Assembly (NCBI RefSeq): GCF_033958435.1
Contig: NC_134138.1
Span: 192,235,298 to 192,299,297, forward strand
DNA length: 64,000 nucleotides
Direction of reading: 5' to 3'
Source: Carettochelys insculpta
Taxonomy: Eukaryota; Chordata; Testudines; Carettochelyidae
Shown: piece by piece, positions 11,567-54,944 of the stretch
How positions within the stretch are numbered: the stretch's first letter is position 1
Layout: each line of letters opens with the position of its first letter
Notes under the pieces: generated by a model
Told to the model about the DNA's origin: nothing
Database searches by the model: none
What the model saw: only the letters and a program-made list of their open reading frames with translations
Translations under genes and position numbers: made by a program

Positions 11567-12490
11567 ACGGAGGCAGAAGCCCAGCAGCAGAGTGGGGGCT
11601 ATCCTGTTTATTGTGTCGAGTGCAATACGTATGACTACTTACCCTGTGGGCGGGTGGCGTATGTGTGCGCTTGATGCAAGGAGCTCCTGGCCCTCAGAGA
11701 CCGAGTGCGTGCTTTGGAGGCCAGGGTGGCTGAACTGGAGGAGCTAAGGAAGGCAGAGGTGTTTGTTGATGAGACTTTCCGGGACATAGTAGGGCTGTCC
11801 CACCTCCAATCTGACAGTCCTGATGCTGTTACAGAGGATGAAAGGCTCAGGGAAGGAGAGCAGTCAATGGGAGCACAGGGAAACCATCCCATAGTTGGGA
11901 CCCTCCTTCCAGAGGGTGCTATTGTATCCTCTCGTGCTGAGGATACTTCTCCGGGGGAGGGAGCGCCAGCTGTTAGGAAGAAGCAGGTTTTAGCAGTGGG
12001 GGATTCGATCATTAGAAATATAGATAGTTGGGTTTGTGATGACCGGGAGAAACGTATGGTGACTTGCCTGCCTGGTGCGAAGGTTGCGGATCTCTCGAGG
12101 CATCTAGACAGACTTATGGGCAGTGCTGGGGAGGAGCCAGTGGTCATGGTACATGTCGGTACCAATGACATAGGGAAGGGTAGAAGAGATGTTCTGGAGG
12201 CCAAATTTATGTTACTAGGAAAGAGACTGAAATCCAGAACATCTATGGTGGCATTCTCTGAAATGCTTCCAGTTCCACGCACAGGGCCAGATAGACAGGC
12301 AGAACTTCAGAGTCTCAATGCATGGATGAGACGATGGTGTAGGGAAGAGGGGTTTAGATTTATTAGGAACTGGGGACACTTTTGGGGTAGGGGGAGCCTA
12401 TACAGGAATGATGGGCTCCACCTAAATCAAGGTGGATCCAGACTGCTGGCATTAAACATTAAAAAGGTCATAGAGCAGTTTTTAAACTAA
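11567..12490 (+). pseudogene. CR1 ORF1: Cys-motif plus SGNH-type esterase
   Basis: CR1 ORF1 proteins bind nucleic acid and contain a PLY/SGNH-like lipase-esterase domain of uncertain role in retrotransposition. The intact part (11705-12490, 261 codons) shows the catalytic blocks GDSIIRN (about residues 99-105), GTNDIG (152-157) and DGLHLNQGG (236-244), that is Ser, Asn/Asp and Asp-His of the triad. Upstream in the same frame is CVECNTYDYLPCGRVAYVCA (11612-11671), a Cys-rich N-terminal motif, followed by a TGA at 11672-11674 and CKELLALRDRVRALEARV, a short coiled coil. The stop cuts the motif from the esterase. No ATG precedes it in frame; an ACG at 11567 stands where a start codon would be expected after the TAG at 11561. 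So start loss plus one nonsense codon inactivate it. Confidence 0.8.
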
Positions 12491-12600
12491 GAGGTGGGGG
12501 AAAGCCGATTGGTGCGGGGGAGCACCTGGATCAGACGGAGACTTCTCTTACACGACGCTCCACAGACAGGGATTCCCTAGAAGTTAGTCAGATAGGGAAC

Positions 12601-13553
12601 ATGGGAAATAATATATGGGCAAGATCAGATGTGAAACAATCGCGTATAAAAAAATCCAACGTGTCTGTGAAAGGCAGACATATAAATAGTGGTAGTTTTT
12701 TAAAGTGCTTTTACACAAATGCTAGGAGTCTGTCTAATAAGATGGGTGAACTGGAGTACCTCATATCAAAGGAGGAAGTCGACATAATAGGCATCACAGA
12801 AACATGGTTGAATGAGGACAATCAGTGGGACACTATCATACCGGGATATAAATTATATCGGAAAGACAGAACAGGTCGTGCGGGTGGTGGAGTGGTACTA
12901 TATGTGAAGGATAATATAGAATCAAATGAAGCAAAAATCCTAAAGGAATCAAAATGTTCCATAGAATCATTATGGATAACAATTCATTCCTCTAATATGA
13001 ATATGGCATTAGGAATATATTACCGACCACCTAACCAGGACAGTGATAGTGATGCTGAAATGTTAAGGGAGATTACAGAGGCTATCAAAATAAAAAACAC
13101 AGTAATAATAGGAGATTTCAATTATCCCCATATTGATTGGGTACATGTCACCTCAGGACGGGATTCACAGATTAAATTTCTTGATGCCTTAAATGACTGC
13201 TTCTTGGAGCAGCTAGTACAGGAACCCACAAGGGGAGAGTCAATTCTCGATCTAGTCCTGACTGGAACGCAGGATCTGGTCCAAGAGGTAACTGTTACTG
13301 GACCACTTGGAAATAGTGACCACAATATAATAACTTTTAATATTCCTGTGTTGGGAAGAACACCACAGCGGTCAAACACTCCGGCGTTTAATTTCAAAAA
13401 GGGGAATTACACTAAAATGAGAAAGCTAGTTAAACAGAAACTAAAAGGTAGAGTAACTAAACTAAAATCCCTGGAAGCTGCATGGAAACTGTTTAAAGAC
13501 ACCATACTAGAGGCCCAACTTAAATGTATACCCCAAATAAAAAAACACAGTAA
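12601..13553 (+). pseudogene. CR1 ORF2, part 1: APE-like endonuclease
   Basis: This is the N-terminal target-nicking endonuclease of the CR1 polyprotein. Catalytic and structural blocks of the APE/exonuclease-III fold are in order: FYTNARSL (about residues 37-44), ITETWLN (65-71, metal-binding Glu), GIYYRPPN (138-145), IIGDFNYPHIDW (169-180) and GNSDHNIITF (238-247, catalytic Asp-His). The frame is open from 12601 to the Harbinger insertion. The apparent continuation to 13641 is read-through into the transposon and is not LINE protein. The true upstream start is unclear; ORF2 may begin a little earlier than the ATG at 12601. Confidence 0.85.
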
Positions 13554-14181
13554 AGCTGCGTCTACACGTGCACGCTACTTCGAAGTAGCGGCACCAACTT
13601 CGACGTTAGGTGGCGAGACGTCGAAGTCGCTAACCTCATGAGGAGATAGGAATAGCGCCCTACTTTGACGTTCAACATCGAAGTAGGGACCGTGTAGACG
13701 ATCCGCGTCCCGCAACGTCAAAATTGCTGGGTCCTCCATGGCGGCCATCAGCTGGGGGGTTGAGAGATGCCCTCTCTCCAGCCCCTGCGGGGCTCTATGG
13801 TCACCGTGGGCAGCAGCCCTTAGCCCAGGGCTTCTGGCTGCTTCTGCGGCAGCTGGGGATCTATGCTGCAGGCACAGGGTCTGCAACCAGTTGTCAGCTT
13901 TGTGGATCTTGTGTTGTTTAGTGCAACTGTGTCTGGGAGGGGCCCTTTAAGGGAGCGGCTTGCTGTTGAGTCCGCCCTGTGACCCTGTCTGCAGCTGTGC
14001 CTGGCATCCCTATTTCGATGTGTGCTACTTTGACGTGTAGACGTTCCCTTGCTGCGCCTATTTCGATGTTGGGCTGAGCAACGTCGAAGTTGGACATCGA
14101 CGTTGCCGGCCCTGGAGGACGTGTAGACGTTATTCATCGAAATAGACTATTTCGATGTTGGCTGCACGTGTAGACATAGCC
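13554..14181 (-). mobile_element. 628-bp Harbinger MITE inserted in CR1 ORF2
   Basis: The element is bounded by AGCTGCGTCTACACGTGC on the left and GCACGTGTAGACATAGCC on the right and flanked by direct TAA triplets (13551-13553 and 14182-14184). Both ends are shared with the 4-kb element at 16070-20070, without the genes. Joining the flanks over one TAA restores an open CR1 frame (AAA CAC AGT AA/G AGA CCT). Relative to 1-549 it lacks 54 bp of the TTCGAA-rich end. The motif GTGTAGACG recurs inside it near 13690, 14033 and 14119. The antisense and sense frames found inside (13575-13950) are not genes. Confidence 0.9.
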
Positions 14182-14184: not shown

Positions 14185-15046
14185 GAGACCTAACAAAGAA
14201 CCACCATGGCTTAACAGCCATGTTAAAAAGGTAGTGAGAGAGAAAAGGGCAGCTTTTAAAAAGTGGAAGTCAAATCCTAGTGAGGAAAATAGAAAGGAAC
14301 ACAAACACTCCCAAATTAAGTGTCATAATGTAGTAAGAAAAGCCAAAAAAGATTTTGAGGAACAGCTAGCCAAAAATTCAAAAAATGATAGCAAAATGAT
14401 TTTTAAATACATTAGAAGCAGGAAGCCCGCTAAAAAAGCAGTGGGGCCCTTGGACGACAAAGATATAAAAGGAGCGATCAAGGAAGACAGTGCCATCGCG
14501 GAGCGATTAAATGATTTCTTTGCTTCAGTCTTCATGGCTGAGGATGTTACAGAGGTTCCTAAATCTGAGCCAGCCTTTTTAGGTGACAAATCTGAGGAAC
14601 TGTCCCAGATTGAAGTGACATTAGAGGAGGTTTTGGAGTTAATTGATAAGCTGAATAGTAACAAGTCTCCAGGACCAGACGGTATTCACCCAAGGGTTCT
14701 GAAAGAACTCAAATGTGAAATTGCGGAGTTATTAACAGTGGTTTGTAACCTATCCTTTAAATCCGCTTCGGTACCCAATGACTGGAAGACGGCCAATATA
14801 ACGCCAATATTTAAAAAAGGCTCCAGAGGAGACCCTGGCAATTATAGACCAATAAGTCTAACATCAGTATCAGGCAAATTAGTAGAAACACTAGTAAAGA
14901 ATAAAATTGCAAGGCACGTAGAAGAGCACGAATTGTTGGGCAAACGTCAGCATGGTTTCTGCAGAGGGAAGTCGTGTCTAACTAATTTATTAGAATTCTT
15001 GAAGGGGTTAATGAACGTGCGGACAAGGGGCACCCAGTGGACATAA
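14185..15046 (+). pseudogene. CR1 ORF2, part 2: linker and reverse transcriptase fingers
   Basis: This continues the endonuclease frame after the MITE. It contains the linker (AAFKKWKSNPSEENRK) and the first RT blocks: NKSPGPDGIHPRVLKEL, FKKGSRGDPGNYRPISLTSV and [16 protein letters not shown]. The frame then runs out at TAA 15044-15046 because of a one-base loss close to 15004-15010 (in the run AAGGGGTT); the expected continuation is in the next frame from about 15013. Without this slip and the two insertions ORF2 would be open from endonuclease to C-terminus. Confidence 0.85.
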
Positions 15047-16069
15047 TATACCTAGATTTCCAGAAAGCCTTTGACACAGTCCCACACCAAAGCCTTTTAT
15101 GTAAATTAGGCGGTCATGGGATAGAAGGAAAGATCCTTTCATGGATCGGGAATTGGTTAAAAGACAGAAAACAAAGGGTTGGAATAAATGGTAAATTTTC
15201 ACAATGGAGGGGGGTAACTAGTGGTGTTCCCCAGGGGTCAGTCCTGGGACCGATCCTGTTCAACTTGTTCATCAATGATCTAGAAAATGAGGTAAGCAGT
15301 GAGGTGGCAAAGTTTGCAGATGACACCAAGTTGTTCAGGACAGTCAAAACCACAAGGGATTGTGAAGAACTACAAAAAGATCTCAGCAAACTGAGTGATT
15401 GGGCAGCAAAATGGCAAATGAAATTTAATGTGGGTAAGTGTAAGGTAATGCACATTGGAAAAAATAACCCAAATTACACGTACAACATGATGGGGTCAAA
15501 TTTAGCTACAACAGATCAGGAAAGGGATCTTGGAGTTATAGTGGATAGTTCTCTGAAGACATCCACGCAGTGTGCAGCGGCAGTTAGTAAAGCAAATAGG
15601 ATGTTAGGAATTATTAAAAAAGGGATAGATAATAAGACAAAAGATATCATACTTCCCCTATATAAAACTATGGTACGCCCACATCTTGAGTACTGCGTGC
15701 AGATGTGGTCTCCTCACCTCAAAAAAGATATATTGGCATTAGAAAAGGTTCAGAAAAGGGCGACTAGGATGATTAGGGGTTTGGAACGGGTCCCATATGG
15801 GAAGAGGCTTGAGAGACTGGGACTTTTCAGTCTGGAAAAGAGGCGATTGAGGGGCGATATGATAGAGGTATATAAAATCATGAATGGTGTGGAGAAAGTG
15901 AATATAGAAAAATTATTTACCTTTTCCCATAATACAAGAACTAGGGGACACCAAATGAAATTGATGGGTAGTAGGTTCAAAACTAATAAAAGGAAATTTT
16001 TCTTCACACAGCGCACAGTCAACCTGTGGAACTCCTTGCCAGAGGAGGCTGTGAAGGCCAGGACTCTAT
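15013..16069 (+). pseudogene. CR1 ORF2, part 3: reverse transcriptase palm and C-terminal region
   Basis: The palm of the reverse transcriptase is intact: [13 protein letters not shown] holds the first catalytic Asp, [20 protein letters not shown] is the template-grip block, and FADDTKLF holds the paired catalytic Asps (FADD at 15313-15324). The C-terminal portion has [30 protein letters not shown] and [20 protein letters not shown], typical of CR1. The frame is interrupted by the second Harbinger insertion directly after KARTL. This is the best-preserved LINE RT in the window. Confidence 0.9.
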
Positions 16070-16505
16070 AGCCGTGTCTACACGTGCACGCTACTTCAAA
16101 GTAGCGGCACTAACTTCGAAATAGCACCCGTCACGGCTGCACGCGTCGGGCGCTATTTCGAAGTTAACTTCGATGTTAGGCGGCGAGATGTCGAAGTCGC
16201 TAACCCCATGAGGGGATAGGAATAGTGCCCTACTTCGATGTTCAACGTCGAAGTAGGGACCGTGTAGTTGTTGCGTGTCCCGCAACGTCGAAATTGCGGG
16301 GTCCTCCATGGTGGCCATCAGCTGAGGGGTTGAGAGACGCTCTCTCCAGCCCCTCAGCTCAATGGTGGCCGCGTGGAGCGGCCCCTTAAAGGTTCCCTCC
16401 CCCTCCCTTCCTGTGCAGGAAGCTGAGGGAACGTGCAGGCGGCAGCCCAGACACGCGGCCGGCCTGCACGTCCCTCAGCCACCCAGAACAGGGCCAGCAC
16501 CTGCC

Positions 16506-17412
16506 ATGGCTGCCCGGAAGCCCCCCCAGCGCCCCCAGGGGACCCCCCCCAAGGGGAGCCAGGGCAGCCAGCCCAGCCAGGTGGGCAGCCAGGCTGGCAA
16601 GCGGCAGTGGGGCCCCTCCTGGATGGAGGCCAAGCTGCAGGACCTGCTGGGGCTCTGGAGCGAGGAGGAGGTGCTCCAGGTAATGGGGAGCAAGAGGCGG
16701 AACGCGGATGCGTTCGCTCGGCTGGCCAACGGCCTGGCTGCCCGGGGTCACCCTGCCCGCACTCCTGATCACGTCAGGAGTAAGGTGAAGGAGCTGCGGC
16801 AGGGTTACTCCCGGGCCCGGGATGCGGCCGGCTGATCTGGGGCTGCCCCCATCACTTGCCCCTTTTACAGGGAGCTCAGGGACATCCTGGGCCCCCGGCA
16901 CACCTCCTCCCCTCCGGCCACCCTTGATACTTCGGCCGACGAGCCCCAGCAGGCCCTGCAGCCGGAGTCTGCCCCGGAGGTAAGCCCCGCACCCCGGGGG
17001 CCCCCCCCGGAGGCCACCCCCGGGACATCGCGGCAGGAGGAGGAGGAGGAGGAGGAGGAGGGGGGCTCCTCCTCCGCAGAATCCGGGCTGCAGATCCTCC
17101 TCCTGCCATCCCGGAGCAGCAGCCGGGCGTCCGCCCCCCGGGGATCTCCGGACCATGGGAGTGGACCTACAGGTATGTACCCCCCTTTGGTGTACACCCC
17201 TGGGCTTGAGGGGTGGGGGATAATAGATATGTGTCCAGGGCCCCCCACATGCTCACATGGCCATGGCCCCAAGGACAGCAGGGCCATGTCCCTCACAGCA
17301 GTGCATCAGCCCCTGCCCCCCCCCACCCCGCACGACAGTGCCATGCCCCATCCCTGGGGCAGGGGGGAGTGGAACCTCGAGGGGCCCCCGGGAGGAGGGG
17401 GTGGGACACCCC

Positions 17413-17448
<36 letters not shown>

Positions 17449-18591
17449 TGTGATGGAGTGGGGGGAGTGCAAAAGGGAGACTCAGGCTAGATATGAGCAA
17501 CAAGAGCCGAATAGCTCCCAGGGGCAAAGGATGATCCTGGGGCTACAGCTGGCAGGTGACACCTCTGCCCTGAACAAAGAGGAGGGAGGAGCCGAGCTGG
17601 CTTGGAATTGGGGGGGAGGGCGGGGGCCACAGGTAGAGGATAGGGGAAGGGAGAGCTGGAAGGCAGCCAGCCTGAGGAGGGGGAAAGCTGCATCCCAGAG
17701 GGGCCCCCCTTGGGGTCTTCTCCCCAGGACGGGTTGGAAGGACTGTCTCTTCCGACAGCTGGTGCTGTCACTCCTGGGAGAAACTGGGCATCTGTGGCCT
17801 AAGAAACCTCTCCTGCTGTCAGACCCTGCGGAGTGAATTGAGAGTCGCTCCCACCAGGGGACGGGGTGCAGTGCAGGGGGACCCCTGAACCCCATCCATC
17901 ACAGCAGCATCTCCCGGGGACGGGGATGGGGAACCTGCAGCACAGGGCTAGGGGGGACAAAGGCCACGGCTCGGGGCCCACACTAACGCCTGTCTCCATT
18001 CTTCTTCCCTGCCTCCTCTCCTGTGTCCCGCACCTGCACCATCAGAAGGACTGGAAGAGAGTGCCAGCGAGGCATCAGTGTCCCGGAGAGCCCTCCGGGG
18101 CCATCACTCCAGGCAAGCCCCTTGGCCGAGGACCAACCGGCCCCACGGCGGGCTAGACGGCGGAACCCGCACCACCACCAGCCGACGGCAACGGACCCCC
18201 AGCTGCTGGCCATCCACCGTCAGCAGCTGGAGGTCGCGGAGCAGCACCTGCAGCTGCAGGAGAGGGTGCTGGCCTGGTGCCAAGAGGCATGGGGGCCTAC
18301 ATGGAGACTTTCAACCACCTGGTGGACTACCTGGCCCCCCATGCCGCGCCGGCCGCCGCAGCGCCCGACGTGCCTGCTCCACCCGCCACACCACCAGCTG
18401 CTCCGCCCGTCGCCATCCCGTCCACCGTCGCCCCGCCACCCACCACCGACGGCCAGAGCGCTGAGGGACCCCTGAAGCCAGCTGAGACTCGCCGGGCATA
18501 TCTTCCGGTCCGGCCCGCCCCCAGCCAGCCCCGGACAGGGCTGCAGCCGCGGCGGGGCTCCCGGCCGCCCACGCCCAGTGCCAGACTTTAG
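16506..18591 (+). pseudogene. Harbinger Myb/SANT-like partner gene, two exons, disrupted
   Basis: In PIF/Harbinger elements a Myb-like protein binds the transposase, carries it to the nucleus and helps it find the ends. Exon 1 is 16506-17172, ending CTACAG/GTATGT. The tri-helix Myb domain follows a basic, Pro-rich leader: SWMEAKLQDLLGLWSEEEVL, then KRRNADAFARLANGLAARGH and VRSKVKELRQGYSRA. A TGA at 16833-16835 stands where the other copy has CGG, so it is a later nonsense change. The acid stretch REL..EEEEEEEEGGSSS follows. Exon 2 starts at 18046 after TGCACCATCAG, in phase. It has one-base losses near 18080 and in the G run 18291-18295, and ends at TAG 18589-18591. The helical segment LQLQERVLAW and AYMETFNHLVDYLAP match the other copy. 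An intronic (CAG)n tract is at 17414-17449. Confidence 0.8.
17414..17449. repeat. (CAG)n microsatellite in the Myb-gene intron
   Basis: About twelve CAG/CAA triplets. It lies between the donor at 17173 and the acceptor at 18045, so it would not be translated. Confidence 0.85.
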
Positions 18592-18986
18592 GGGTGAGGG
18601 GCCCGGGACGTGGCCCCCCCCCCGTATATAGTTGGGACTTATTATTTTGTGCCCCCCATTTGCCCCGTCCCCCCCATGTAAATAGTTCTCCCCTTTATCC
18701 TCCCTGGTTTTCTTTTTATTACTGAGTACGCTTTTTTATTACTATTGTTTTATTTGTACATATTACTTTGGTTCCACACATGTTGCGTATAGTTTGTTCT
18801 TGTTTTATATTTATAGTTAAAAAAAAAAGTTCTAAAAGAAAAAGCAGTTTAAGTTCAGCCACAAGTGTGTGCTGTCATTTGTCCAGGAAAAGTGGGAGGG
18901 GGGTGCGGTTGGGTGCTCCATGGTGTGGGCGTTGGGGCAGGGAGTGTGGTGGAGGAAGGGGCGGGCAGTGAGGGGCCTGGCAGAGT

Positions 18987-19741
18987 TCACCCCACGGCCT
19001 CATCATCGAAGTGGGCCCGCAAGGCCTCCCGGACCCGGGTCCCTTCAGGGTCCACCTGCAGACTGGGGGCAGCGGGTGGCTGCACGTCGGCCCTGCTGGC
19101 CTCCACAGCCCAGCCCTGGAAAAAGGCCTCCCCCTTGCTCTCCACCAAATTGTGCAGGGCGCAGCAGGCACCCTCCTCTGCCCTGCCCTGCCCTCCCCCG
19201 CCCTCCCCTCCCCTCCTCTGCCCTGCCCTCCCCCCTTGGGTTCTCTTACCTCCATGAGGACAGCCCCGACGGTGGCCTTGCCGACACCAAACTGCTGCCC
19301 CACGGATCGGTAGCTGTCGGGAGTGGCCAGCTTCCAGACAGCGATGCCGACCCGTTTCTGCACTGTGAGGGCACGCCGCATGGCGGTGTCCTGGTGCCTG
19401 AGTGCGGGGGTGAGCCACTGGCACAGCTCCATAAATGTCTGCCGGCTCATCCTGAAGTTCCTGAGCCAGCGGTCGTCGTCCCACTCCCCAAGCACCAGCC
19501 GCTCCCATTAGTCGGTGCTGGTGGGGTAGCTCCACAGCCGCCGGCGTGTGAGGCGGGGGTGGGGGCGGGGTGCTGCAGGGTTGGGGGTTGAGCCCTGCTG
19601 CCCTGGCGGCAGCTCCTCCTCCTGTGTAGCAAGGAGGTGCTCAGCTGCCTCCCGCATGGCATGGAGCAGGGCAAGCCCTGCTCCTGCCGGGAGGGCTGGG
19701 TGGACCTCTGGCTGCTGCTGCTGCTGCTGCTGGGGGTCCAT
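18987..19741 (-). pseudogene. Harbinger transposase remnant without catalytic core
   Basis: The gene starts at ATG 19741-19739 with a poly-Gln stretch and reads to a TAA at 19510-19508 where the other copy has a Trp codon. In the same frame VLGEWDDDRWLRNFRMSRQT, ELCQWLTPALRHQDTAM and SVGQQFGVGKATVGAVLMEV follow, matching the N-terminal helix-turn-helix region of the intact-length copy. Exon 1 ends at 19250 (ATGGAG/GTAAGA). The intron then runs into a G-rich repeat and is fused at about 19174 directly to the last part of exon 2 (CCALHNLVESKGEAF to HFDDEAVG, stop 18989-18987). The deletion took the splice acceptor and about 570 coding bases with all three DDE residues. Confidence 0.85.
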
Positions 19742-20070
19742 GACTGCGTCGCCCGGGGTCTGTGTGCCTATGGCTCCTCAAACGGCGTGCTGTGGAGGCT
19801 GAGTGTGTCTGGGAGGGGCCCTTTAACGGAGCGGCTAGCTGTTGCCCCGGAAGCGCTAGTCCGCCCTGTGACCCTGTCTGCAGCTGTGCCTCGCATCCCT
19901 ATTTCGACGTGTGCTACTTTGGCGTGTAGACGTTCCCTCGCTGCGCCTATTTCGATGTTGTGCTGCGCAACGTTGAAGTTGAACATCGACGTTGCCAGCC
20001 CTGGAGGACGTGTAGACGTTATTCATCGAAATTGCCTATTTCGATGTAGGCTTCACGTGTAGACGTAGCC

Positions 20071-20330
20071 TATTAGGGTTTAAAAAAGAGCTCGATAAAT
20101 TTTTGCAGGTTAGGTCCATAAATGGCTATTAGCCAGGGGTAAAGTATGGTGCCCTAGCCTTCAGTACAGGGGCAGAAGGTGGATGGCAGGAGATAAATCA
20201 CTTGATCATTGTCTTCTGTTCACCTTCTCTGGGGCACCTGGCATTGGCCACTGTCGGCAGACGGGATACTGGGCTGGATGGACCTTTGGTCTGATCCAGT
20301 ACGGCCATTCTTATGTTCTTATGTTCCCTC
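20071..20330 (+). mobile_element. CR1 ORF2 C-terminal end and 3' UTR
   Basis: After the Harbinger element the CR1 frame resumes (GFKKELDKFLQVRSINGY, stop TAG 20130-20132). The conserved 3' UTR follows: GGGGCACCTGGCATTGGCCA, GGGCTGGATGGACCTTTGGT and CTGATCCAGTACGGCCATTC. It closes with two TTCTTATG octamers. The hairpin and octamers at this end are recognised by the CR1 reverse transcriptase in related elements. Confidence 0.9.
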
Positions 20331-24718: not shown

Positions 24719-25173
24719 GGCTGTGTTTACACATGCCACTTCTTCTGGAAGCGGCATGGTAATGAGCTATCCAGAAGATGCTCATGAGGCACAGATGTAA
24801 ATTTTCCATGCCTCGTTAACATATGGGCACATGATTCAAAGTCTGAAGAAGCTCTTCTAGACTCCAAACTGCATGTGCAGACACACAGCCTGCAGGGATC
24901 TTCCAGAAGGAAACCCTCCTTCCTTCCAGACACCCCCTCTTCCCCAAAATTTTGAGGAAGAAGGGGCTTCCAGAAGGAGGGTTTCCTTCCAGAAGATTCT
25001 GGCGGGCCACGCATCTGCACGTGTATTTTGGAGTCCGGAAGACCTTCCTCTGGACTTCAGATCATGTGCCCATATGCTAATGAGGTGTGGAAAATTTACA
25101 TCCATGCCTTATTAGCTTCTTCCAGATAGCTCATTACCATGCCACTTCCAGAAGAATTGGCACATGTAGACAG
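24719..25173. mobile_element. 455-bp long-palindrome MITE
   Basis: The left arm (GGCTGTGTTTACACATGCC, TTCTTCTGGAAG, CATGGTAATGAGCTATCC) is answered inverted at the right (GGATAGCTCATTACCATG is the complement of the arm, then CTTCCAGAAGAATTGGCACA and TGTAGACAG). The symmetry extends almost to the centre at about 24946, where CCCAAAATTTTGAGG is itself palindromic. The element therefore folds into one long hairpin. The terminus resembles the GTCTACAC end of the Harbinger-type elements, but the ends and target duplication are ambiguous. It contains no gene. Confidence 0.75.
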
Positions 25174-26905: not shown

Positions 26906-27318
26906 ACTCTGGGGTGGGAATCTTTCCTGTTGAAGCCCTTCACGTTTGTAAGAAATGCTTAAATAGTCACTGGGCACAAGTAATAATGCCTCTGTAAAAT
27001 GAGTATGTTCAAGCTGTGGAAAGGAATGAGTGAATTATGGTACAAAGACAGGAAAGATACAGAATATGAAATTAGAGCTTCTACCTCGGCCTTTGAGCTT
27101 TGCTGAACTTTTGAACAGAGTTGTCATTCCTAAGTCTCAGCCTTATAACAGCACTGATGTCAACTACACAAAGAGTAACTCCAGGTTTATATTGGTATGG
27201 CTGAGAGCAAAGCCCGGCCCTTTATTGTGACAATTTCTTGAGAGATAGCACAGGGTAGCATATGGTGATAGTTTGTTTTATTAAAGAGCGATTCCAACTT
27301 TTAAATGGAAAAGCACGT
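26906..27318. other. Unassigned intergenic DNA
   Basis: Nothing recognised before the Harbinger element. Confidence 0.45.
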
Positions 27319-27680
27319 TATGGCTATGTCTATACTGGGACACTACATCAAAATAGCTTATTTCGACGTAGCGAAATCGAAATAAGCTATTTTGATGCGT
27401 AGCGTCCACACATCCTCCAGGGCTGGTGCTGTTGATGTTCAACATCAACATAGGACAGCGCTAAATCGAAATAGGCCCCGCAGGGGAGAGTCTACACAAA
27501 AAAGCAGCCCCAGTCGGAACAAGGGGGCTAGGAAAGCCTGCAGATGGGGGTCACAGGGCGGACTAGCCCTTCCAGGGCAACAGCCAGCCGCTCCCTTAAA
27601 GGGCCCCTCCCAGGCAGACTCAGCCTGCACAGCACAGGTCTGCAGAGCCCACAGCCACTCGCAGACCCTGTGCATGCAGG

Positions 27681-29091
27681 ATGGCACCCCAGCAGCAGCA
27701 GGCAGAAGCCCACACAGCCGCCCCCGGAGCAGTGGCCGCCCTGCTCAGTGCCATGGAGGAGGCCGCCCAGCATCTCCTAGAAGAAGATGAGCTGTCCTCC
27801 TCCGGGAATGAAGAAGCCGCCCCAGACCATGTAGCCCTCCCAGCCTCCCCTCGCTGGACGCGCTGCCAGCTATGGAGGTACCCCACCAGCACAGAATGGT
27901 GGGAGTGGCTGGTGCTTGGGGAATGGGACAATGACCGCTGGCTCTGGAATTTCCGGATGAGCCGGCAGACGTTCCTCGAGCTCTGCCAGTGGCTCACCCC
28001 TGCCCTTCAGCACCAGGACACCCCCATCTGACGTGCCCTCACCATCGAGAAACAGGTCGGCATCACTGTCTGGAAGCTGGCCACTCCAGACAGCTACTGA
28101 TCCGTAGGGCAGCAGTTTGGTGTGGGCAAGGCCACCATCGGGGCTGTCGTCATGGAGGTAAAGGGACCCTGGGGGAGGGGTAGAGACCGGGAGAGGGGGG
28201 AGGAGGGGGCACCCAGGGGAGAGCCTGGGGGCAAAGGGGGGACCCAGGGGCAGAGGGAGTACCCAGGGGGAGCCCGGGGCAGGGCCATGCACACCCTGCA
28301 CACCCGTCACGGGTGCTCATGTCCTTCCCCTGCAGGTGGTCCGCATGCTGAATGCTCTACTGCTCCACAGGCTCATGCGGCTTGGGGACCCGGATGCAGC
28401 CATCGTGGGGTTTGCCATCATGGGCTTCCCTAATTGCTTCAGGGCACTGGATGGGACCCACATCCCCATCTGTGCCCTGGAGCACAGTGGAGGATGCTTC
28501 CTGAATAGGAAGGGCTTCCATTCAGTGGTCCTCCAGGCCTTGGTGGATAGCCAGGGCTGCTTCTTGGACAGTTATGTTGGCTGGCCTGGCAGCACCCACG
28601 ACACCCGGGTGTTTAGAAACTCGGGCCTGTGCCACTGGCTGGAAGCAGGGACCTACATCCCCCAGCAGGAGATCCCTCTGGGGGACACCACCGTGCCTCT
28701 CTGCCTCATCGCAGATACAGCCTACCCCCTCTGGCCCTGGCTCATGCGCCCCTACAAGGGCCACCTCAGTGCCAGCCAGGAGTGGTTCAACACCCACCTG
28801 AACCATGCACACCAGGTGGTTGAGAGGACTTTCGGCCGCCTCAAAGGCCGCTGGAGGTGCCTCCTCACCCGCCTGGACGCAGGGCTCCCCAACATCCCCC
28901 AGGTTGTGGGCACGTGCTGCGCACTCCACAACCTGGTGGAGAGCAAGGGGGAGGCATTCGTGCAGGACTGGGCTGTGGAGGCTGTCATGGCCTATGCCCA
29001 GCCACCCGCTGCTCCCAGTCTCCAAGCCGACCATGAGGGGATCCAGGTCTGGGAGGCCTTGCGGGCCCATTTTGACCAGGCTGCGGGGTGA
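27681..29091 (+). pseudogene. PIF/Harbinger DDE transposase, two exons, two nonsense codons
   Basis: This is the enzyme that cuts and joins the element ends. Exon 1 is 27681-28157 (ATGGAG/GTAAAG) and exon 2 is 28336-29091 (TTCCCCTGCAG before it), joined in phase 0, for 410 codons. The N-terminal half has a helical region (WWEWLVLGEWDNDRWLW, RMSRQTFLELCQWLTP) and the DNA-binding block QQFGVGKATIGAVV. Exon 2 is fully open and carries the DDE fold: ALDGTHIPI (Asp near 198), GSTHDTRVFRNS (about 86-96 of exon 2), IADTAYPL (Asp near 286) and VVERTFGRLKGRW (Glu near 322), with 35 residues between the last two. In-frame TGA codons at 28029-28031 and 28098-28100 replace Arg codons (the other copy reads MRRAL and SYRSV), consistent with CpG-to-TpG change. 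It is closest to HARBI1-type proteins. Probably inactive. Confidence 0.9.
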
Positions 29092-29202
29092 ACGCTGGCA
29101 GAGCCAGCTGGTGAGCCACCCACTGCCCCCCACAACACTACCTGCCCCCACGCCCACACCACTGAGCACCGAAGAGCACACATCACCACACACATTGTTT
29201 TA

Positions 29203-29208
29203 AATAAA
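29203..29208 (+). terminator. Polyadenylation signal of the transposase gene
   Basis: AATAAA lies 112 bases after the transposase stop codon, in TTTTAAATAAACC. It is a plausible cleavage signal for the transposase transcript. A downstream GT-rich element is not obvious. Confidence 0.5.
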
Positions 29209-29386
29209 CCAAACCTTCTTGAAACAACGATGAACTTTTACATTAATGATGGGGAACTATGTACATCGGGGGGGGGACAGCTACTAAAGGGGGGTGGGAC
29301 AAGGCAACTATGTACAATTAATGGGGGGGAATATGTACAAAGGGGGCCTGGGGGACTCAGTCCTTGGCCTCCTTCGCCCCTACTGT

Positions 29387-30839
29387 TCAGCGCCTGGCAT
29401 GGGCGGGGTGCGACCCACATCTGGGTCGGAGGCCCCGTCGAGGCTGGGTGGGGGCTGGGAGAACCAGCAGGTATGGCTGGGCTGGTTCCTGAGCCCTGCG
29501 GTCCCCCTCCTCAGCAGGCTCCAGGACAGGTGGAGGGCGGCTGAGAGGGATGGCGGCCAGAGCAGCGGGGGGTGCCATCTGCTCCGTGATCCGCTCGAAA
29601 GTCCTCATGAATGACCCCCAAGCCTCCTGGTGCCAGGCCAGCGCTAGCACCTGCAAGTGGAGCTGGTGCTTCTCCACTTGCAGGCGGCGCTCTGAATCCT
29701 CCACTTGACGCCAGAGGGTGGCGAGGAGCTGGGGGTCAGCGGTTGCCTGTGGCTGGCTCTGGCGGTGGCGGGCTTATCCTGGGGCCTGTCCCTGCTCTGC
29801 CACTGGGCTGCCCTGATACGATCACCCCGGTGGGCTGTCCGGCACAACAGATGCAGCGCCCATGCTGTCGAGGTCTTCAGATGGTACGGCTGCGGAATAG
29901 AGGGTGCAAGAGCAGAGACAGCTGTTAGTCTGGGCCCTGACCCATGGCCCACATCCCCTACCCCTCCACTGCTGGGTCCCTATCTCCTGTCCCCAGAGAT
30001 GATGATGATGGGTGTGGTATTCCCACCCCGGGGTGGGCCCCTTCTGAGCTTCTGCTCCCCCCTATCCCCAGGAATGGGGCATGGCGCTGTCCTGCGGGGC
30101 AGGTGCTGACAGGCTCTGAGGGACATGCCACTGCTGTCCTCAGGGCCGTGATCTGGCTGGGTGTGTGGAGGGCCCTGGTCATGTCCCTTGTCCCCACCCC
30201 TCAGCCCAGGGGTGTGCACCCGGGGTACTTACCTGACGGTCCGCTCCCACAGTAGGGGGACACCCGTTGGGCGGATGCCCTGCTGTAGCTGCGGGAGGGG
30301 AGGTCAATGAGGAGCCCCCCGTCGCTGGAGCCCTCCTCCTCCTCCTCCGTGGGCCCCTGGGGTGCAGGTCTGGCCTCTGGGTCGGACTCCGGCTCCGGGG
30401 CCTGCTGGAGCTCGTCGGCTGAGGTGTCAAGGGTGGCCAGGGGGGAGGTGGGGTACCTGGGGTCCAGGATCTCCCTGAGCTCCCTGTAAAAGGGGCAAGC
30501 GGCGGGGGCGGCCCCAGACCGGCTGACCGTGTTCGGGGCCCAGGCGTAACCCTGCCGCAGCTCCTTGACCTTACTCCTGACATTGTCAGGAGTATGGACA
30601 GGGTGACCCCGGGCAGCCAGGCCCTTGGCCAGCCGGGCGAACACGTCTGCATTCCGCCGCTTCCTCCCCATTACCTGGAGCACCTCCTCCTCACCCCAAA
30701 GCCCCAGCAGGTCCCGGATCTCGGCGTCTGACCAGGAGGGGCCCCTCCGCCTCATCCCCCCCCGGCTGGATGGCTGGGAGCCCTGGGTCCCCTTTGGGGG
30801 GGTGCCCTGTGGGCGCCTGGGGGGCTGGCTGGCTGCCAT
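29387..30839 (-). pseudogene. PIF/Harbinger Myb/SANT-like gene, two exons
   Basis: This is the accessory DNA-binding partner of the transposase. Exon 1 runs 30839-30233 and ends CCGTCAG/GTAAGT, a consensus donor. Exon 2 runs 29889-29387 after ATTCCGCAG, in phase, for about 369 codons. The Myb-like trihelix is residues 36-98: SWSDAEIRDLLGLWGEEEVL with three spaced Trp/Leu positions, then KRRNADVFARLAKGLAARGH and VRSKVKELRQGY. It is followed by an acidic segment (PTEEEEEGSSDGG). Exon 2 has a helical segment, QLHLQVLALAWHQEAWG then SFMRTFERITEQMAP. Exon 1 is intact, but exon 2 has in-frame stops at 29824-29822 (TGA) and 29776-29774 (TAA). An intron-retaining product of about 200 residues with the whole DNA-binding domain could still be made. 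Confidence 0.85.
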
Positions 30840-31254
30840 GGGTGCTGGGTGGTGGATCGGGGCGTCTGGAGGGTGTGCAGGCTGTGCTCACTCTCAGCTT
30901 CTTGCCACAGGAAATAAGGGGGCAGGGAGCTTTAAGGGGCTGCTGCACGTGGTGACCATAGAGCTGAGGGGTTGGACAGAGTGTCTCTCAACCCCTCAGC
31001 TGATGGCCGCCATGGAGGACCCTGCTATTTCGACGTAGCGGGACGCTGATTGACTACACATGCCCTACTTCGATGTTGGACGTCGAAGTAGGGCGCTAGT
31101 CCCATCTTCTGATGGGGATAGCGATTTTGACGTCTCGCCGCCTTACATCAATTTCAAGTTTGAAATAGCACTTGGCACGTGTAGACGCACCGGGCGCTAT
31201 TTCGAAGTTGGCCCAGCTATTTCGAAATAGCTGGCTAGTGTAGACGTGGCTTAT

Positions 31255-34008: not shown

Positions 34009-35053
34009 GACACGGTCTCACATAATATACTTATCAATAAACTACGCAAATACAACTTAGACGGGGCTACTATAAGGTGGGTGAACAACTGGCTGGATAA
34101 CCGTACCCGGAGAGTAGTTATTAATGGTTTTCAATCCTGCTGGAAAAGTGTAACTAGTGGGGTTCCGCAGGGGTCTGTTTTAGGACCAGTTCTGTTCAAT
34201 ATCTTCATTAACGATTTAGATATTGACATAGAAAGTACGCTTATTAAGTTTGCAGATGATACCAAGCTGGGAGGGGTTGCAACTTCTTTGGAGGATAGGG
34301 TCATAATTTAAAAGGATCTGGATAAACTGGAGAAATGGGTTAAGGTAAACAGGATGAAGTTTAATAAGGACAAATGCAAAGTGCTCCACTTAGGAAGGAA
34401 CAATCAGTGTTACACATGCAGAATGGGAAAGGACTGCCTAGGAAGTGAGTACAGCAGAAAGGGATCTAGGGGTTATAGTGGACCACAAGCTAAATATGAG
34501 TCAACAGTGTGATGCTGTTGCAAAAAAAGCAAACATGATTCTAGGATGCATTAACAGGTATGTTGTGAACAAGACACAAGAAGTCATTCTCCCGCTCTAC
34601 TCTGCTCTGGTTAGGCCTCAGCTGGAGTATTGTGTCCAGTTCTGGGCACCGCAGTTCAGGAAGGATGTGGAGAAATTGGAGAGGGTCCAGAGGAGAGCAA
34701 CGAGAATGATCAAAGGTCTAGAGAACATGACCTATGAAGAAAGGCTGAAAGAATTGGGCTTGTTTAGTTTGGAAAAGAGAAGATTGAGGGGGGACATGAT
34801 AGCAGTTTTCAGGTGTCTAAAAGGGTGTCATAAGGCAGAGGGAGGGAACTTGTTCTTCCTTGCCTCCGAGGATAGAGCAAGAGGCAATGGACTTAAATTG
34901 CAGCAGGGGAGGTTCAGGTTGGACATTAGGAAAAAGTTCCTAACTGTCAGGGTGATCAAACACTGGAACGAATTGCCAAGGGAGGTGGTAGAATCTCCAT
35001 CACTGGAGATATTTAAGAAGAGGTTAGATAGATGTCTATCAGGGATGGTCTAG
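34009..35053 (+). pseudogene. CR1 reverse transcriptase C-terminal part
   Basis: The first frame (34009-34311) encodes [35 protein letters not shown] and [10 protein letters not shown] with FADD at 34249-34260. It is closed by TAA 34309-34311 at a position that is CAA in related copies. After about 130 bases and a frameshift near 34440 a second frame (34445-35053, 202 codons) gives [40 protein letters not shown] and [20 protein letters not shown] to the stop. It is a dead but well-preserved C-terminal half of CR1 ORF2. Confidence 0.85.
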
Positions 35054-35141
35054 AAAGTACTTGGTCCTGCCATGAGGGCAGGGGGCTGGACTCGATGGCC
35101 TCTCGAGGTCCCTTCCAGTCCTACTCTTCTATGATTCTATG
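34009..35141 (+). mobile_element. CR1 LINE, 5'-truncated, sense
   Basis: The copy starts within the reverse transcriptase (GAC ACG GTC TCA, equivalent to DTVSH) and runs through the C-terminal ORF2 and the 3' UTR. The 3' end reads CTCGATGGCCTCTCGAGGTC, CCTTCCAGTCCTACTCTTCT and ends in ATTCTATG-type octamers (35127-35141). This end differs from the TTCTTATG end of 20071-20330 and shares its sequence with the SINE tail at 32390-32440, so it belongs to another CR1 lineage. Confidence 0.9.
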
Positions 35142-36345
35142 AGATAAGTAATGTAGATGCATTAATATTTGTAGGACAGGGGCTGTCAGGATGTACAGGT
35201 CCATATGCAGTGGGGATGTAAGGGGTGTGAAAGCATCCTACCCCAGTGGGCAGCCCTGCCCACACCCCAACCAGCCTGGCTAGAGATTACTGGGGCAGGG
35301 GGTGGACAGGCAGCAGCAGCTGCAGGGTATCCCTCACCCAAACTCACCCTGGGGCACTCCACCACTCCGTCCCAGCCCTCTGAGCTCCACTGGGCAGCCA
35401 GAGGCCTCCCACTTGCTCACAGAAAAGTGGGGCTCAGCAGGCCGGGAGGCTGAGGTGAAGCCCCATGGTGAGCATGGAAGGTAGGGAGGCTGTGGGGAGG
35501 TGACCCCTGTGGCTGAGAGGGTGGGAGGGTTCTTGGGCCAAATAGAGAGGTGGAGTCTTTCAGGTTGGGGGGGGCTGTGTTTCAGTGTGTGGGAGATGCT
35601 GGGGCCTTGTGGCAGCGGCTGTTGTGTGGAGAGGGTTCTTTGGACCAAGTGGGAGATGAGGGGGGAACTTTGGGCCTAGCAGGGAAGCTGTTCAGCTGTT
35701 GGGGAGGCAAACCTGGGGGAGATGGAGGAAGGCAGGGACAGCTGGAGGGAAAGGTGAGGGGGCAGGGCTAGCTGGAGGATTGAGGGTGGGGAGAGCCATA
35801 TTTACAAAACAAAACAAAAAAACACACTCCCCCCCCAGAAATTCCTGCACACCGGCCTGATGGATCATCTCTGCTGAAATAAGAAAGGAAAAACCCAGCC
35901 GAAGCTGAGAACGCTTACCAGCTGTAAGGCAGGGAGAGGCAGTCAGAGGAATTCTCTTGCAACATGGCCACTTGATGGCAGCTGCTTGTCTCTGCCACAG
36001 TTAGAGAACCAGGCCCTAGAAAAGCCTTCTGGGAAGCAGTTCCAAGAAGAAGCCAGCCCAGGACTGGGGAAAGATAGTGGAGAGTTATAGAAGAAGGTGC
36101 TGTTTCTGCAGCCATGATGACTGCCATGCCTGGTTAGCGCACCTGGAAGAAATCAGTCAGGAGATCAGCCTCGCCCTTTGAAGAACACTTATTTAATATA
36201 TGTGATGCACCACTGTATATTTATCAAGTTTTCACTGCAAAAACACTGGAATGCTTTACTCACAATGTGTTACAGAAATGCTGCCACGGCCCAGCTGAGA
36301 CTGCCCCGCCCCCATAGCTCTCGGGTCTGTGCAAACATACAGTAA
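35142..36345. other. Unassigned intergenic DNA, GC-rich
   Basis: 35200-35780 is GC-rich with G-runs on + and no codon-like structure. An A/CA-rich tract CAAAACAAAACAAAAAAACAC is at 35808-35828. Confidence 0.45.
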
Positions 36346-36433
36346 GGCCATGTCTACACTTAGAGAAAACTTCTAAATGGCCATGGTAATTACCATGGCC
36401 ATTTCGAAGTTTTCTCTAAGTGTAGACATAGCC
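36346..36433. mobile_element. 88-bp palindromic mini-MITE with Harbinger-type terminus
   Basis: The left arm starts GGCCATGTCTACACTTAGAG and the right arm ends CTCTAAGTGTAGACATAGCC. The two 44-bp arms match at 42 positions and meet at GGTAATTACC. The first 14 bases equal the GGCTATGTCTACAC terminus of the large Harbinger elements apart from one change. The flanks are GTAA on the left and ATAA on the right, compatible with a TA or TAA target duplication. It has no interior, so it is a minimal pair of ends. Confidence 0.75.
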
Positions 36434-39400
36434 ATAATGACAGCCCTTTGCCCTAAAGCATGTACAATCTAAAAAAAGAGATGAGCTGTAGTGAGTCACT
36501 TAATCTTTCCATGCCACATATGAAATTACGATAAACACTCTCCCCACTCCCCCTAACCCCCGCCACCCTTTGTCTGTCTCATCCATAGGTTTGTATGATG
36601 TTTGAGGCAGGGTATGTTTCTTATTAGGTCTATGCACTCATGAGGTTCTGGCTCAGTTGTGCTTATGAAGCTATGGAAATATAAATGACAAATAATACAG
36701 ACACTATGCAGGACTGCCAGGAAGTGAATGTAAATCTGGTCAAATCTAGGTCAGTGCATGAAGCATAAGACTGTCCTTCTTTACAAAAAAGTCTCAAAAC
36801 CATTAAAATGTCCAGAAACAGACAGAAACAACCTGATTTGTAGCAGTGAGGAAAATGGAGAGCAAGTTATTGAATAAGAAAAAGCTTGAGTCTCTCAGAG
36901 ACACCTTGAGTGTTCTGAAGTATCAAGTATGGACTTGGAAAAATGCATCGCAAAAGTCAGAAAATGCCTGACTCAAAAATCTATGTCACTGGCGCAAATG
37001 GGAATTAAACTCTAATTACCAGTCTGACATGTTTCAAAAATTAAAAAACATTCTCAGCAACTGTCACAGTGTCAAAACAATTATTTGCATGCATGAGCAG
37101 ATGTCAGATATTGTAGAGGTGTATACATACTTGCAAATTTAAACAGAAAATTTTCTAAAATTGGAGGTATAATCTGTTACACTAATTGCAACATACACAC
37201 AAATCTTGGGTGAAGGGAAAAGTGCTGATTTAGTCTTTCTATTTTTCTCTCACACAGGAGCCAACTTCTGAGCACAAATAAACTGAAGCAGAATGGAGTC
37301 AACCACATCTTTAGACAGATAAAAAAATCTCGCATTTTTCCAGCCTTATCTTTCTATTGTTTTCCCTTCTGATCTGTTCCTGTTATTTGCAAGCTGGAGG
37401 AATATATTATACTTTTGGGGATTTTTACTGTGTTTGATGGTAATACTGTAATTGCATTGACAATATATAATGCCTCTCATACATAAAATCCTGGAGTACA
37501 TTAGAATCAGGAATTCCATACCACTCTGTGGCAACATTAGGATCCAATTAAAAAAAAAAAGCCTCTTAAGGATATGTTTAAATTTGAGCTCATATTTAAG
37601 TCTCAGTGGGACTTAGGGACATATTTAAGGATGTTTTCCTGAACTGGAGCTTGCGTTTCTTCCAGTGTTTATGGCAATGCCTCTGCACTACAAAGCCTTC
37701 ACTTTTCATTAACAGTTTTCTTAGGTTATAGTGACATTTGATTAGCTGGCTCTGCTGCTGCAGCAGCTTGTCAAAATAAGACTGAGTATGAGCCATTGTG
37801 ATTTAATTAAGTTTAGAAAGAAATCTATGTTTAGAGTTGATCATTATTATGATCTGAGAGTTTGTCAGACAAGGCTTTTATCATCTAATGGAAACAAAAC
37901 AAGTTTTGTCCACACTGCTTATTTATCATGCATGTAATAACTATATTTTTATTTTGCTATCACATTCAGTTTGAGCAAGGGAGCAGGGATGATGCTCATG
38001 GCTCAAGGGATCCTTGTGAAAAATGTATTTATAAGCAAGTGTGAATGACTCTAAAGTATATTTTTATCAAAAATGTAAGTTCAATGACCGGCTTTCCATT
38101 CAGAAGATATGGAACTAAAATAAATTAGGACCTTGGGGAATTTGCATTCCATGAAGCTAATGACTAACACTTTGGTCATGTTTTCTGTTATGTAACAATA
38201 TATCCTATAGCCTTTTGGACTAATCAAGTGAAAGAAGGGGATTTACGTACCAATGTGTTTTAAGAAAGGAGCTTAGTAGATTCCCAAAGTAATTTCGTTT
38301 GACATTCAGAGCTATTTGATTGCAATATCTGAGCACTTCTAGTCACATTTGTATTCAGCATGTAGCAATCTGAGTTTTGTAATGCACTGAAGCTGACAAA
38401 TACATGATGCTGGCTTCTTTTCCTTTTCTGCAGTGCTGATTGATTTCCTATCACCCAGGCAAAAACACTGAGAGCACATTCCAAATTGCTAGCATTATAA
38501 AATCCCAGAGTCACAGGCACTCTGTGGACTATTATGTGGTATTTGGGGATCTGATATTCAAGAGAAAGCAATGGAAGCCTTATTGTATATTTATGACTAG
38601 CCATTTCCCTCTCCTGTGAATTTTGCTAGGATAGAGCAAAAGTCACCAGTGTAATATATTTAGAGGACAAAAAAAATCAAATGTAAATATATTTATAAGA
38701 ATGTGCTATTTGTGGGAATTTTATTTTTATTAATATGATATGATATGGTTTCATCCTAAGCCACGGGCTGGGATTCTTGGATGACACAAAGGCTGTTGTG
38801 ATGCATACACAGAATAATCCTCCTCTTTCTCGTCATCCTTTCTGCTTGTTGCCCTCACTTCTGGGTCCTTTTATGATTATTTGTGTATAGGTCACATTCT
38901 GCTTTAAAACTTGACTTTAGAGAAAGCTAGCAGCTTGGGCTATTTATATTTGACTGATGGGTATTTTTGCAGTGTAGTAAATTGAGTTATAATAGAGGAA
39001 GAGAGGACCCATGACAAGGGATAAATTCAAAAGAGTGCCACTTGTAGACACCACACACCCTTGGAACAAATCCACGGGCATGCAGCATCTTAAATTTCCA
39101 ATAGTCATTCCATTTATTTTGTTCAGGACACTTAACTTCTTTGCTGTCCCCAAAAGTTGCCATAGGCAGATTACTTGAATATGTCACTAATACACATAAA
39201 CTTTAATATAGTGCTCTCACTTTTTTGTATCATTTTAACAAGACCATGGACGATCCTTCTCTTGCAATCGCACAGAAATAAATGCCAGTTCTCTTTTGTT
39301 ATTTCTCCACCAGTGACTTCCACCTGACATTTATCCCAAGCACTGCACTCAGGTGGTTAATAACAGCAAATAAAAATCTCCAGAAGCAGCCTAAAAGTAC

Positions 39401-40094: not shown

Positions 40095-40325
40095 GAGAGA
40101 GTGACAGAGAAATAGCTGTGTTAGTCTATTTGCTATCAAAATGAAAAAGCAGTCATGTAGCACTTTAAAGACTAACAAAATAACTTATTAGATGGTGAGC
40201 TTTCGTGGGACAGACCCACTTCAGCTATGATCTGAGGAAGTGGGTCTGTCCCACGAAAGCTCATCACCTAATAAATTATTTTGTTGGTCTTTAAAGTGCT
40301 ACATGACTGCTTTTTTGCTTTCAAG
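40095..40325. mobile_element. Penelope-type terminal hairpin remnant
   Basis: A left arm (AAAAAGCAGTCATGTAGCAC, TTTAAAGACTAACAAAATAA, GTGAGCTTTCGTGGGACAG) is followed by its inverted copy (CTGTCCCACGAAAGCTCATC, TTATTTTGTTGGTCTTTAAA, GTGCTACATGACTGC). The word GGTCTGTCCCACGAAAGCTC corresponds to GGGTCTTTGCCCACAAAAGC in the Penelope element at 5978-9045, so this is the terminal part of a second Penelope family. It is preceded by TAGCTGTGTTAGTCTATTTG, also typical of such ends. Confidence 0.7.
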
Positions 40326-47214: not shown

Positions 47215-48537
47215 AACAAGTCTAAGAGAGAAAAATTGAAGATGGTTGGCAGTTTTTCAAAGAGACGTTATTTAGGGCACAAGAGGAAACTATCTCATGG
47301 CATAGGAATGATAAGAAGCGTAGCAAGAAATCACCATGTCTTAACCAGGAGGTCTTCAGTGACATAAAAATCAAAAAATTGTCTTACAAAAAGTGGAAAC
47401 TAGATCAAATTACAAAGGACAAATGTAAACAAATAACACAAGTTTGTAGGGACAAAATTAGAAAGGCCAAGTCACAAAACGAGCTCAAACTAGCTAAATA
47501 TATAAATGGTAACAAGAAAATATTCTACATACACATTAGCAGCAAGAGGAAGACTGGGGACAGAAAAGGCCCATTACTCAATGAATGGCGGGGGGGAACA
47601 GTACAGTAACAGAAAATGTGGAAGTGGCAGAGGTGCTTAATGACTTCTTTGTGGATGATACCAAGGTGGGAGTCATTGCATGTGCTTTGGAGGGTTGGAT
47701 TATAAGCCAAAATGATCTGCACAAACTGGAGACAGCGTGTGAGAAAAACAGGATAACATTCAAAAAGACAAATGCAAAGTACTCCACTTAGGAAGGAACA
47801 ATCAATTTCAACCATATGAAATGGGAGGTGACTACCTATGAAGTATTACAGAAAGGAGTATTACATTGTAGACTACAAGCCACATATGAGTCAACAGCGT
47901 AATACTGTGGCAAAAACACAAAACAAAACAAAAAAAACAATCATTCTGGGATATATGAACAGAAGTGTTTTAAGCAAGACATGAGAAGTAATTCTTCTGC
48001 TCTACTCCACAGTAATTAGGCCTCACCTGTAGTATTGTAGCCAGTTCTGGGTATCGCACTTCAGGAAAGATGTGGACAAATTGGAAAAATTCCAGAGAAA
48101 AGCAACAAATATTATTAAAGTTCTAGCAAACAAGACCTATGAGGGAAGATTGAAAGAACTGGGTTTATTTAGTCTAGAAGGTAAGACTTCAAGGGGACAT
48201 AATAATAGCTTTCAAGTACCTAAAACATTATAAGGAGGAGGGAGAAAAAAACATTCTTCTTAACCTCTGATGATGGGACAAGAAGCAATGGGCTTAAATT
48301 GCAGCCAAGCGTGTTTAGGTTGGACATTACACAAACTTTGTGTCAGGATGGTTACTGACAGGAATAAATTACCAATGGAGGTTGCAGAATTTCCATCTTT
48401 GGGGATTCCACAGGGTAGACAAACACCTGTCAGGGATGGTCTAGTTGCTGCTTGGGGGACTGTCTAGAATACCAGGGACTGGGCCTGATGACCGCTCAAG
48501 GTTCCTTCCATTTCCGTCATTTTATGATTCTATGATT
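47215..48537 (+). mobile_element. CR1 LINE with internal deletion of the reverse transcriptase
   Basis: The 5' part (47215-47650) matches the ORF2 linker: GTTTTTCAAAGAGACGTTAT, ACAAAAAGTGGAAACTAGAT and GGGACAAAATTAGAAAGGCC, ending with LNDFF. At about 47650 it jumps to GTGGATGATACCAAGGTGGG, the segment that follows the first RT motifs, so roughly 700 bp including most of the RT are missing. It then runs collinearly to the 3' UTR (CCTGATGACCGCTCAAGGTT) and the ATTCTATG end at about 48537. It has many stops and frameshifts, so it is older than the copies at 11079 and 34009. Confidence 0.85.
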
Positions 48538-53986: not shown

Positions 53987-54660
53987 AAGCCAAAGTGATG
54001 ACATGACAAAAATGTAAATACTTGACAAACCTCAGTCTTCCCCAAAGAAAAGTAAAACCATTGGCACTGTCAAAGGGTAGCAGATGTTCAGGGCCACATA
54101 TCCAGCAGATACATTCATGCAGGAGGTAATTAAAAAAGAAAAAGATTTTGACATCTGAGTCTTTGAACAGTGCTGCTTTTAGAACGGCATTCTAAAATCT
54201 AAATGCCTGCAGAGTATTTGCAGCTGACAAATTTTCAAGAACTGCTGAACTTTCCCTAATGAAAAAATTTTCTTCAGTTACTTTTGTGCTGGGCAGGGAT
54301 ACCTCAAGCTGATGAAGACCAACACCAAAGGATAACTGATAGAGACATTCCACCTGCTTTCCTCAAGAGTTAAAATTATTCTCAACTTGGAAACTGTTTA
54401 CATTGTCCAAGGAAAACATTTAGAAGTTAGTAGATAGGTTTTAGTTGAAATTAGCTGTAGGTGCTTAGCATGGTCACTTCAAAATACAATATTTATCCTT
54501 CAAAAGTATCTATAACCTTCTTGGTCATACAAACTGCAGAAAACAGTTGATTTAAATTTAGATTTCAACTCATTTGCTGTATGGCTTTACTGAATAATGA
54601 AGAAAGTGCTTCTGTTGCTGCTTTTACATCTGCTTATAGTCTTTTAGTGAATATTTCTTT
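52455..54660. other. Unassigned intergenic DNA with a (CT)n(CA)n tract
   Basis: The frame at 52404-52736 starts inside the hAT end and has no known motif. A compound microsatellite is at 53955-53987. Confidence 0.5.
53955..53987. repeat. (CT)n(CA)n microsatellite
   Basis: CT repeat passing directly into CA repeat. Confidence 0.9.
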
Positions 54661-54944
54661 GTTTAAAGAAGCAAACTAGATGTAAATGACATTGTAATTT
54701 CTCTAACATTAAAACTGAGATTTCATCAGCTATCTGTTCATCAGCTATCTGTACTGAGAAAGAATAGTCTTCGCTCCAGTGAAATTAGCCAGTAATTCCA
54801 TTGTTTAAAGAAGCAAACTAGATGTAAATGACATTGTAATTTCTCTAACATTAAAACTGAGATTTCATCAGCTATCTGTTCATCAGCTATCTGTACTGAG
54901 AAAGAATGGTCTTCGCTCCAGTGAAATTAGCCAGTAATTCCATT
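54661..54944 (+). repeat. Recent 142-bp tandem duplication
   Basis: 54661-54802 and 54803-54944 are direct tandem copies, both beginning GTTTAAAGAAGCAAACTAG and ending CAGTAATTCCATT. I see one difference (GAATAGTC versus GAATGGTC). Each unit itself has an internal 15-bp repeat, TCATCAGCTATCTGT twice. Confidence 0.95.

Follow-up and report, generated by a model that had tools for sequence, protein, structure and literature searches.

A dead, structurally complete PIF/Harbinger element with convergent intron-containing transposase and Myb/SANT-like genes in turtle DNA

A genuine, structurally complete and inactive copy of a PIF/Harbinger transposon, here called element A, is located in a 64,000-nucleotide stretch of turtle DNA (the window, i.e. 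the whole stretch that was analysed). It is almost certainly a once-autonomous cut-and-paste transposon, now dead, of a turtle that is most likely Carettochelys insculpta. Element A spans positions 27321-31250 (3.93 kb, no strand assigned). The boundaries given in the initial annotation (27322 and 31251) are correct to within one to two bases, and its description of a structurally complete PIF/Harbinger element with convergent intron-containing transposase and Myb genes holds with respect to family, termini, target site duplication (TSD) and layout. A TTA TSD flanks the element on the left (27318-27320) and on the right (31251-31253). The 14-bp terminal inverted repeats (TIRs) at 27323-27336 (plus strand) and 31237-31250 (minus strand) begin with G and are identical at 11 of their 14 positions; the three mismatches are transitions. 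On the left, one or two additional bases (T or TG) precede the TIR match, and TTAT on either side of the element also permits the reading of a 4-bp duplication, at A alone. Between these ends, a transposase gene on the plus strand and a Myb/SANT-like gene on the minus strand converge, each containing one intron. This structure is far beyond chance.

The first exon of the transposase gene extends from its ATG at 27681 to 28157 and is interrupted by nonsense codons at 28029 (codon 117) and 28098 (codon 140). It is followed by a phase-0 GT..AG intron (28158-28335) with the borders GAG/GTAAAG...CTGCAG/GTGG, slashes marking the exon ends. Exon 2 (28336-29091) is fully open, as initially proposed, and matches the Pfam domain DDE_Tnp_4 with an E-value of 2.1e-37 (128.6 bits, cut-off 24.8). 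In the alignment to relatives, the aspartates in ALDGTH and ADTAYPL and the glutamate in VVERTFG, which we take to be the DDE triad, are retained. No helix-turn-helix (HTH) motif was detected, exon 1 being without any match in the Pfam scan; in the relatives P0005 and P0007 (labels of this form denote protein records), SpoIIID matches under the cut-off are found (E 0.034 and 0.047).

On the minus strand, exon 1 of the Myb/SANT-like gene (30233-30839) is open, and its DNA-binding domain, initially described as intact, matches PF13837 (Myb_DNA-bind_4) at an E-value of 9.1e-11 (42.5 bits, cut-off 27). The GT..AG intron (29890-30232) has the borders CAG/GTAAGT...CCGCAG/CC, and exon 2 (29387-29889) contains nonsense codons at 29824 (codon 225) and 29776 (codon 241).

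Homologous proteins were drawn from a collection clustered at 90%, with the best 120 of 223 matches listed for the transposase. Among these, the top 16 homologues of exon 2 are from turtles only; those from Carettochelys insculpta, a member of the Trionychia, are 61-83% identical, and those from Pelodiscus and sea turtles 50-55%. The 27 Myb homologues comprise 26 from Carettochelys and one from Pelodiscus. By this distribution, the host is very probably Carettochelys insculpta. The closest listed relatives are at most 83% identical to the transposase of A and at most 76% to its Myb protein. The Carettochelys models with a DDE_Tnp_4 domain (P0001-P0008 and others) and the Myb-like models (P0121-P0144, P0146, P0147) share the junctions of A wherever these are visible, at 54-83% local identity among the matches listed. 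Unlike A, they are annotated as host or uncharacterised genes, and several fuse exon 2 to other upstream sequence.

Both splice junctions proposed for A in advance of this comparison (28157/28336 and 30233/29889) agree with the predicted gene models of relatives, which provide this support in place of reads. At the transposase exon join, the residues ME/VV are found in P0004, P0005, P0007, P0011, P0016, P0052 and P0105 (VE/VV in P0052). Similarly, the Myb relatives continue unbroken from the end of exon 1 into sequence resembling exon 2 of A, for example GSGPSAAPAEGPES in P0129. Among the titles and abstract openings listed from the open-access literature (without subscription papers or Repbase), nothing on the turtle family of A turned up.

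According to an excerpt of Han et al. (2015; PMC4482050), PIF/Harbinger TIRs are short, their first nucleotide is usually A or G, and the mean element length is 4.1 kb. Element A is alike in its TWA duplication, in the combination of a DDE transposase (DDE_Tnp_4) with a Myb/SANT open reading frame (ORF), in its short TIRs starting with G and in its near-average length. It is unlike the elements of that excerpt in that its two genes are interrupted and that the Pfam scan detected no HTH. The same source regards a family as potentially active if both ORFs are intact; in A neither is, which bears on activity and not on membership.

Element A has exactly four internal stops, two per gene. The initial annotation counted these four as the only changes separating A from a coding-competent pair; the stops are real, and the claim that nothing else stands in the way is unsupported because missense decay is present as well. 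Decay was measured as departure from the residue common to at least 70% of relatives in a column, using relatives chosen by hand: for transposase exon 2, eight from the 120 listed (223 found), and for Myb exon 1, 13 from the 27 homologues. In exon 2, A deviates in 28 of 215 columns (13.0%) and the eight close relatives in 4.3-13.4%, six of them in no more than 7.5%; P0006 (12.9%) and P0008 (13.4%) are as decayed as A. Six of 14 conserved arginines in exon 2 of A are now W, C, H or Q, the pattern expected of CpG decay, and P0006 has likewise lost six of 13. For transposase exon 1, the deviation is 6 of 40 columns in A (15.0%), 7.3-16.1% in four Carettochelys relatives and 37.7-52.8% in three distant ones.

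In Myb exon 1, A deviates in 27 of 143 columns (18.9%) and the 13 relatives in 3.2-12.5%. Over the whole Myb gene the values are 73 of 245 columns (29.8%) for A and 3.1-13.3% for nine relatives, figures on which subfamily differences and the alignment of the variable C-terminus weigh. Part of the deviation of A in transposase exon 2 and Myb exon 1 may also represent subfamily difference. With a first measure (90% threshold, mixed alignment), A was not separable from its relatives, deviating in 4 of 80 columns compared with 2-41 deviations in 13 relatives. Because of the two nonsense codons per gene together with the missense changes, A is regarded as dead; it could be moved at most by proteins supplied from other copies.

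Four further elements in the window are related to A or share similar ends. Element B (16069-20072, minus strand) lies in reverse orientation inside a long interspersed nuclear element (LINE), with CTA and TTA as TSD (one mismatch). It lacks about 690 bp equivalent to 28224-28914 of A, which is most of transposase exon 2, and is thus without the catalytic core; a GAG/GTAAGA donor is retained. The non-autonomous copy C (13554-14181, minus strand; TSD TAA) is located inside ORF2 of the LINE that also holds B. A second non-autonomous copy, D (1-549, plus strand), is truncated by the start of the window, and TTA is found past its sole visible end. The alignment of C with D, at 95% identity, has 494 columns, of which 13 are mismatches and 11 are gap positions. 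Element E (36346-36434, no strand assigned) resembles a miniature inverted-repeat transposable element (MITE); an imperfect palindrome spans all of it (36340-36439), TAA is present on both sides, and its kinship is indicated by its similar ends alone. Two other palindromic repeats, at 24724-25172 and 40144-40315 (78% and 91% self-complementary), are possibly other MITEs.

The LINE, with an ORF1-like frame (271 aa) and ORF2-like frames, is found at 11675-13553, at 14185-16068 and from 20076 onward, being split at two points by C and B. When the flanks of C and of B are joined with a single TSD copy, the LINE frame is open across each site. Elsewhere in the window, three related repeat copies that are 70-72% identical (2733-3754, 34030-35133 and 47648-48544) resemble LINE ORF2 tails, as judged by eye from the frame at 34442-35053. 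At 54653-54952, a unit of 142 bp is repeated head to tail, with 97% identity over 158 bp.

The ends of the elements share a subterminal motif. At the left end of A, an imperfect palindrome containing TTCGACGT covers 27338-27407 and is 83% self-complementary over 72 alignment columns. TTCGACGT or its complement is present in all seven 250-bp end segments of elements A to D. TTCGA occurs 3-11 times per segment, compared with 0.38-0.46 expected from 2000 mononucleotide shuffles; the lowest count, three, is that of the left end of A (p 0.021). The same pentamer is absent from the 756 bp of exon 2 and occurs twice in 5 kb of flank. Since the ends are kin by descent, the seven segments are not independent, and the left and right end of one element form the better comparison. 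The motif in the region of TTCGACGT is a likely, predicted binding site of the Myb protein. In zebrafish, a 9-bp subterminal motif of the two-protein system Harbinger3_DR is bound by the Myb-like protein, according to excerpts of PMC9710019 and PMC9179366. The ends of A likewise carry a repeated motif; unlike that of Harbinger3_DR, its role is suggested by repetition alone.

By analogy with the known family, the convergent genes of working ancestors would have yielded, each after splicing, a DDE transposase and a Myb/SANT-like protein that cooperated. Binding of the Myb protein to the repeated subterminal motifs would have recruited the transposase, which would then have cut at the TIRs of the two ends and inserted at TWA, duplicating 3 bp. 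Both this partnership and its mechanism are inferred from the known family. Comparison of A with B provides a view of past function. In transposase exon 1, the two differ at 35, 21 and 46 of 159 sites at codon positions 1, 2 and 3, respectively (position 2 versus 3, p 0.0009), and fewer changes at position 2 than at position 3 are as expected if the A and B lineages stayed functional for some time. For Myb exon 1, the corresponding counts are 38, 34 and 49 of 202, which is not significant (p 0.084). These figures are from ungapped exon-1 alignments alone, because the large deletion in B renders the global alignment unreliable over the introns and over the second exon of both genes.

The initial annotation further supposed that close relatives elsewhere in the genome are probably active or recently active, a reading under which intact copies of more than 95% identity would still be transposing in the host. 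Uninterrupted relatives do exist as gene models (P0005, 388 aa; P0123, 397 aa), and DNA elements account for 14.23% of the assembled Carettochelys genome according to an excerpt of PMC10960847. In addition, the 13 substitutions between C and D fall within about 480 bp, and C keeps a CpG observed/expected ratio of 0.84. Against this, the best listed proteins do not exceed the 83% (transposase) and 76% (Myb) identity to A given above, and the CpG ratio is 0.40 for A (0.30 for exon 2), 0.52 for B and 0.18-0.22 for the flanks (boundaries of B and C a few bases off the final ones). With the lowest ratio, A seems the most eroded of A, B and C, though the three are not alike in length, base composition or type of sequence. 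Recent activity of the family of A is judged unlikely. The pair of C and D, the sole sign of later movement, suggests that a related non-autonomous sister family moved later.

Assignment of A to a sister group within PHIS, NuwaII or ISL2EU, and not to PIF/Harbinger in the strict sense, is very unlikely. The second ORF of NuwaII is likewise Myb/SANT, and this group, which has been reported in one turtle, uses the target C/TNA/G (slashes enclosing the duplicated bases), according to the excerpt of PMC4482050. However, the combination of C to the left and G to the right of the TSD is absent at A, B, C and E, and the sites fit TWA: TTA at A, TAA at C and E, CTA/TTA with one mismatch at B, and TTA past the visible end of D. 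ISL2EU is contradicted by a duplication of three bases (TTA) instead of AT and by a second gene that encodes Myb and not YqaJ. That A is a domesticated host gene pair similar to HARBI1/NAIF1 can hardly be maintained: two genes of fitting kinds do adjoin, and joint domestication of PIF pairs has occurred repeatedly (PMC9710019, in excerpt), but TIRs and TSD are still there, missense changes have accumulated, and the nonsense codons in both genes already refute it unless they are assembly errors.

The exon-2 junction was surveyed in 20 turtle records (P0001-P0016, P0020, P0022, P0052, P0105), all of them predicted models. Seven are canonical, and the sequence of P0006 opens two residues before the end of exon 1. 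In another eight, exon 2 starts at its native place after something else: an alternative donor within exon 1 in P0001, and other upstream sequence in P0002, P0003 (named ANKRD13C), P0008 (named HLF), P0010 (Pelodiscus), P0013 (named PNPLA4), P0020 and P0022. For P0003 and P0022, the place of the junction is extrapolated from the second residue, as the first is A and not V. In the remaining four the junction is not visible, with P0009, P0012 and P0014 beginning inside exon 2 and P0015 being in another frame. The upstream part of P0010 matches PF00709, presumably adenylosuccinate synthetase. PNPLA4 is represented by one canonical (P0011) and one fused isoform (P0013), and the host-named records P0004, P0005, P0006 and P0016 have no host part.

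Several predicted turtle models join the native phase-0 acceptor of exon 2 to other upstream sequence, host genes included, which suggests exon capture. It is rather improbable that exon 2, which combines a phase-0 acceptor with the entire catalytic domain and the stop codon in a single open exon, is a portable exon repeatedly captured as terminal exon by host transcripts of the softshell group. Host-transposase fusion genes were reportedly described by Cosby et al. in 2021. The present models resemble such fusions in linking host exons to an exon of a transposase, and differ in that the exon so linked is the catalytic one; in HLF, the C-terminal part, which we take to be the bZIP domain, is replaced. 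As the catalytic exon substitutes for the end of the host protein, by-product isoforms seem a better description of the models than new genes. In known fusions, an excerpt of PMC12062965 states, DNA-binding domains tend to be kept.

Element A itself is one more decayed member of a well-described superfamily, with junctions that match predicted gene models. For annotation, it matters that some models in turtle gene sets, carried under host names or as uncharacterised, are Harbinger transposase genes, Myb genes or fusions with them. If transcribed and kept, the latter would form a family-scale set of host-transposase fusions and, if expressed, would offer many parallel cases of how transposase exons enter host genes.
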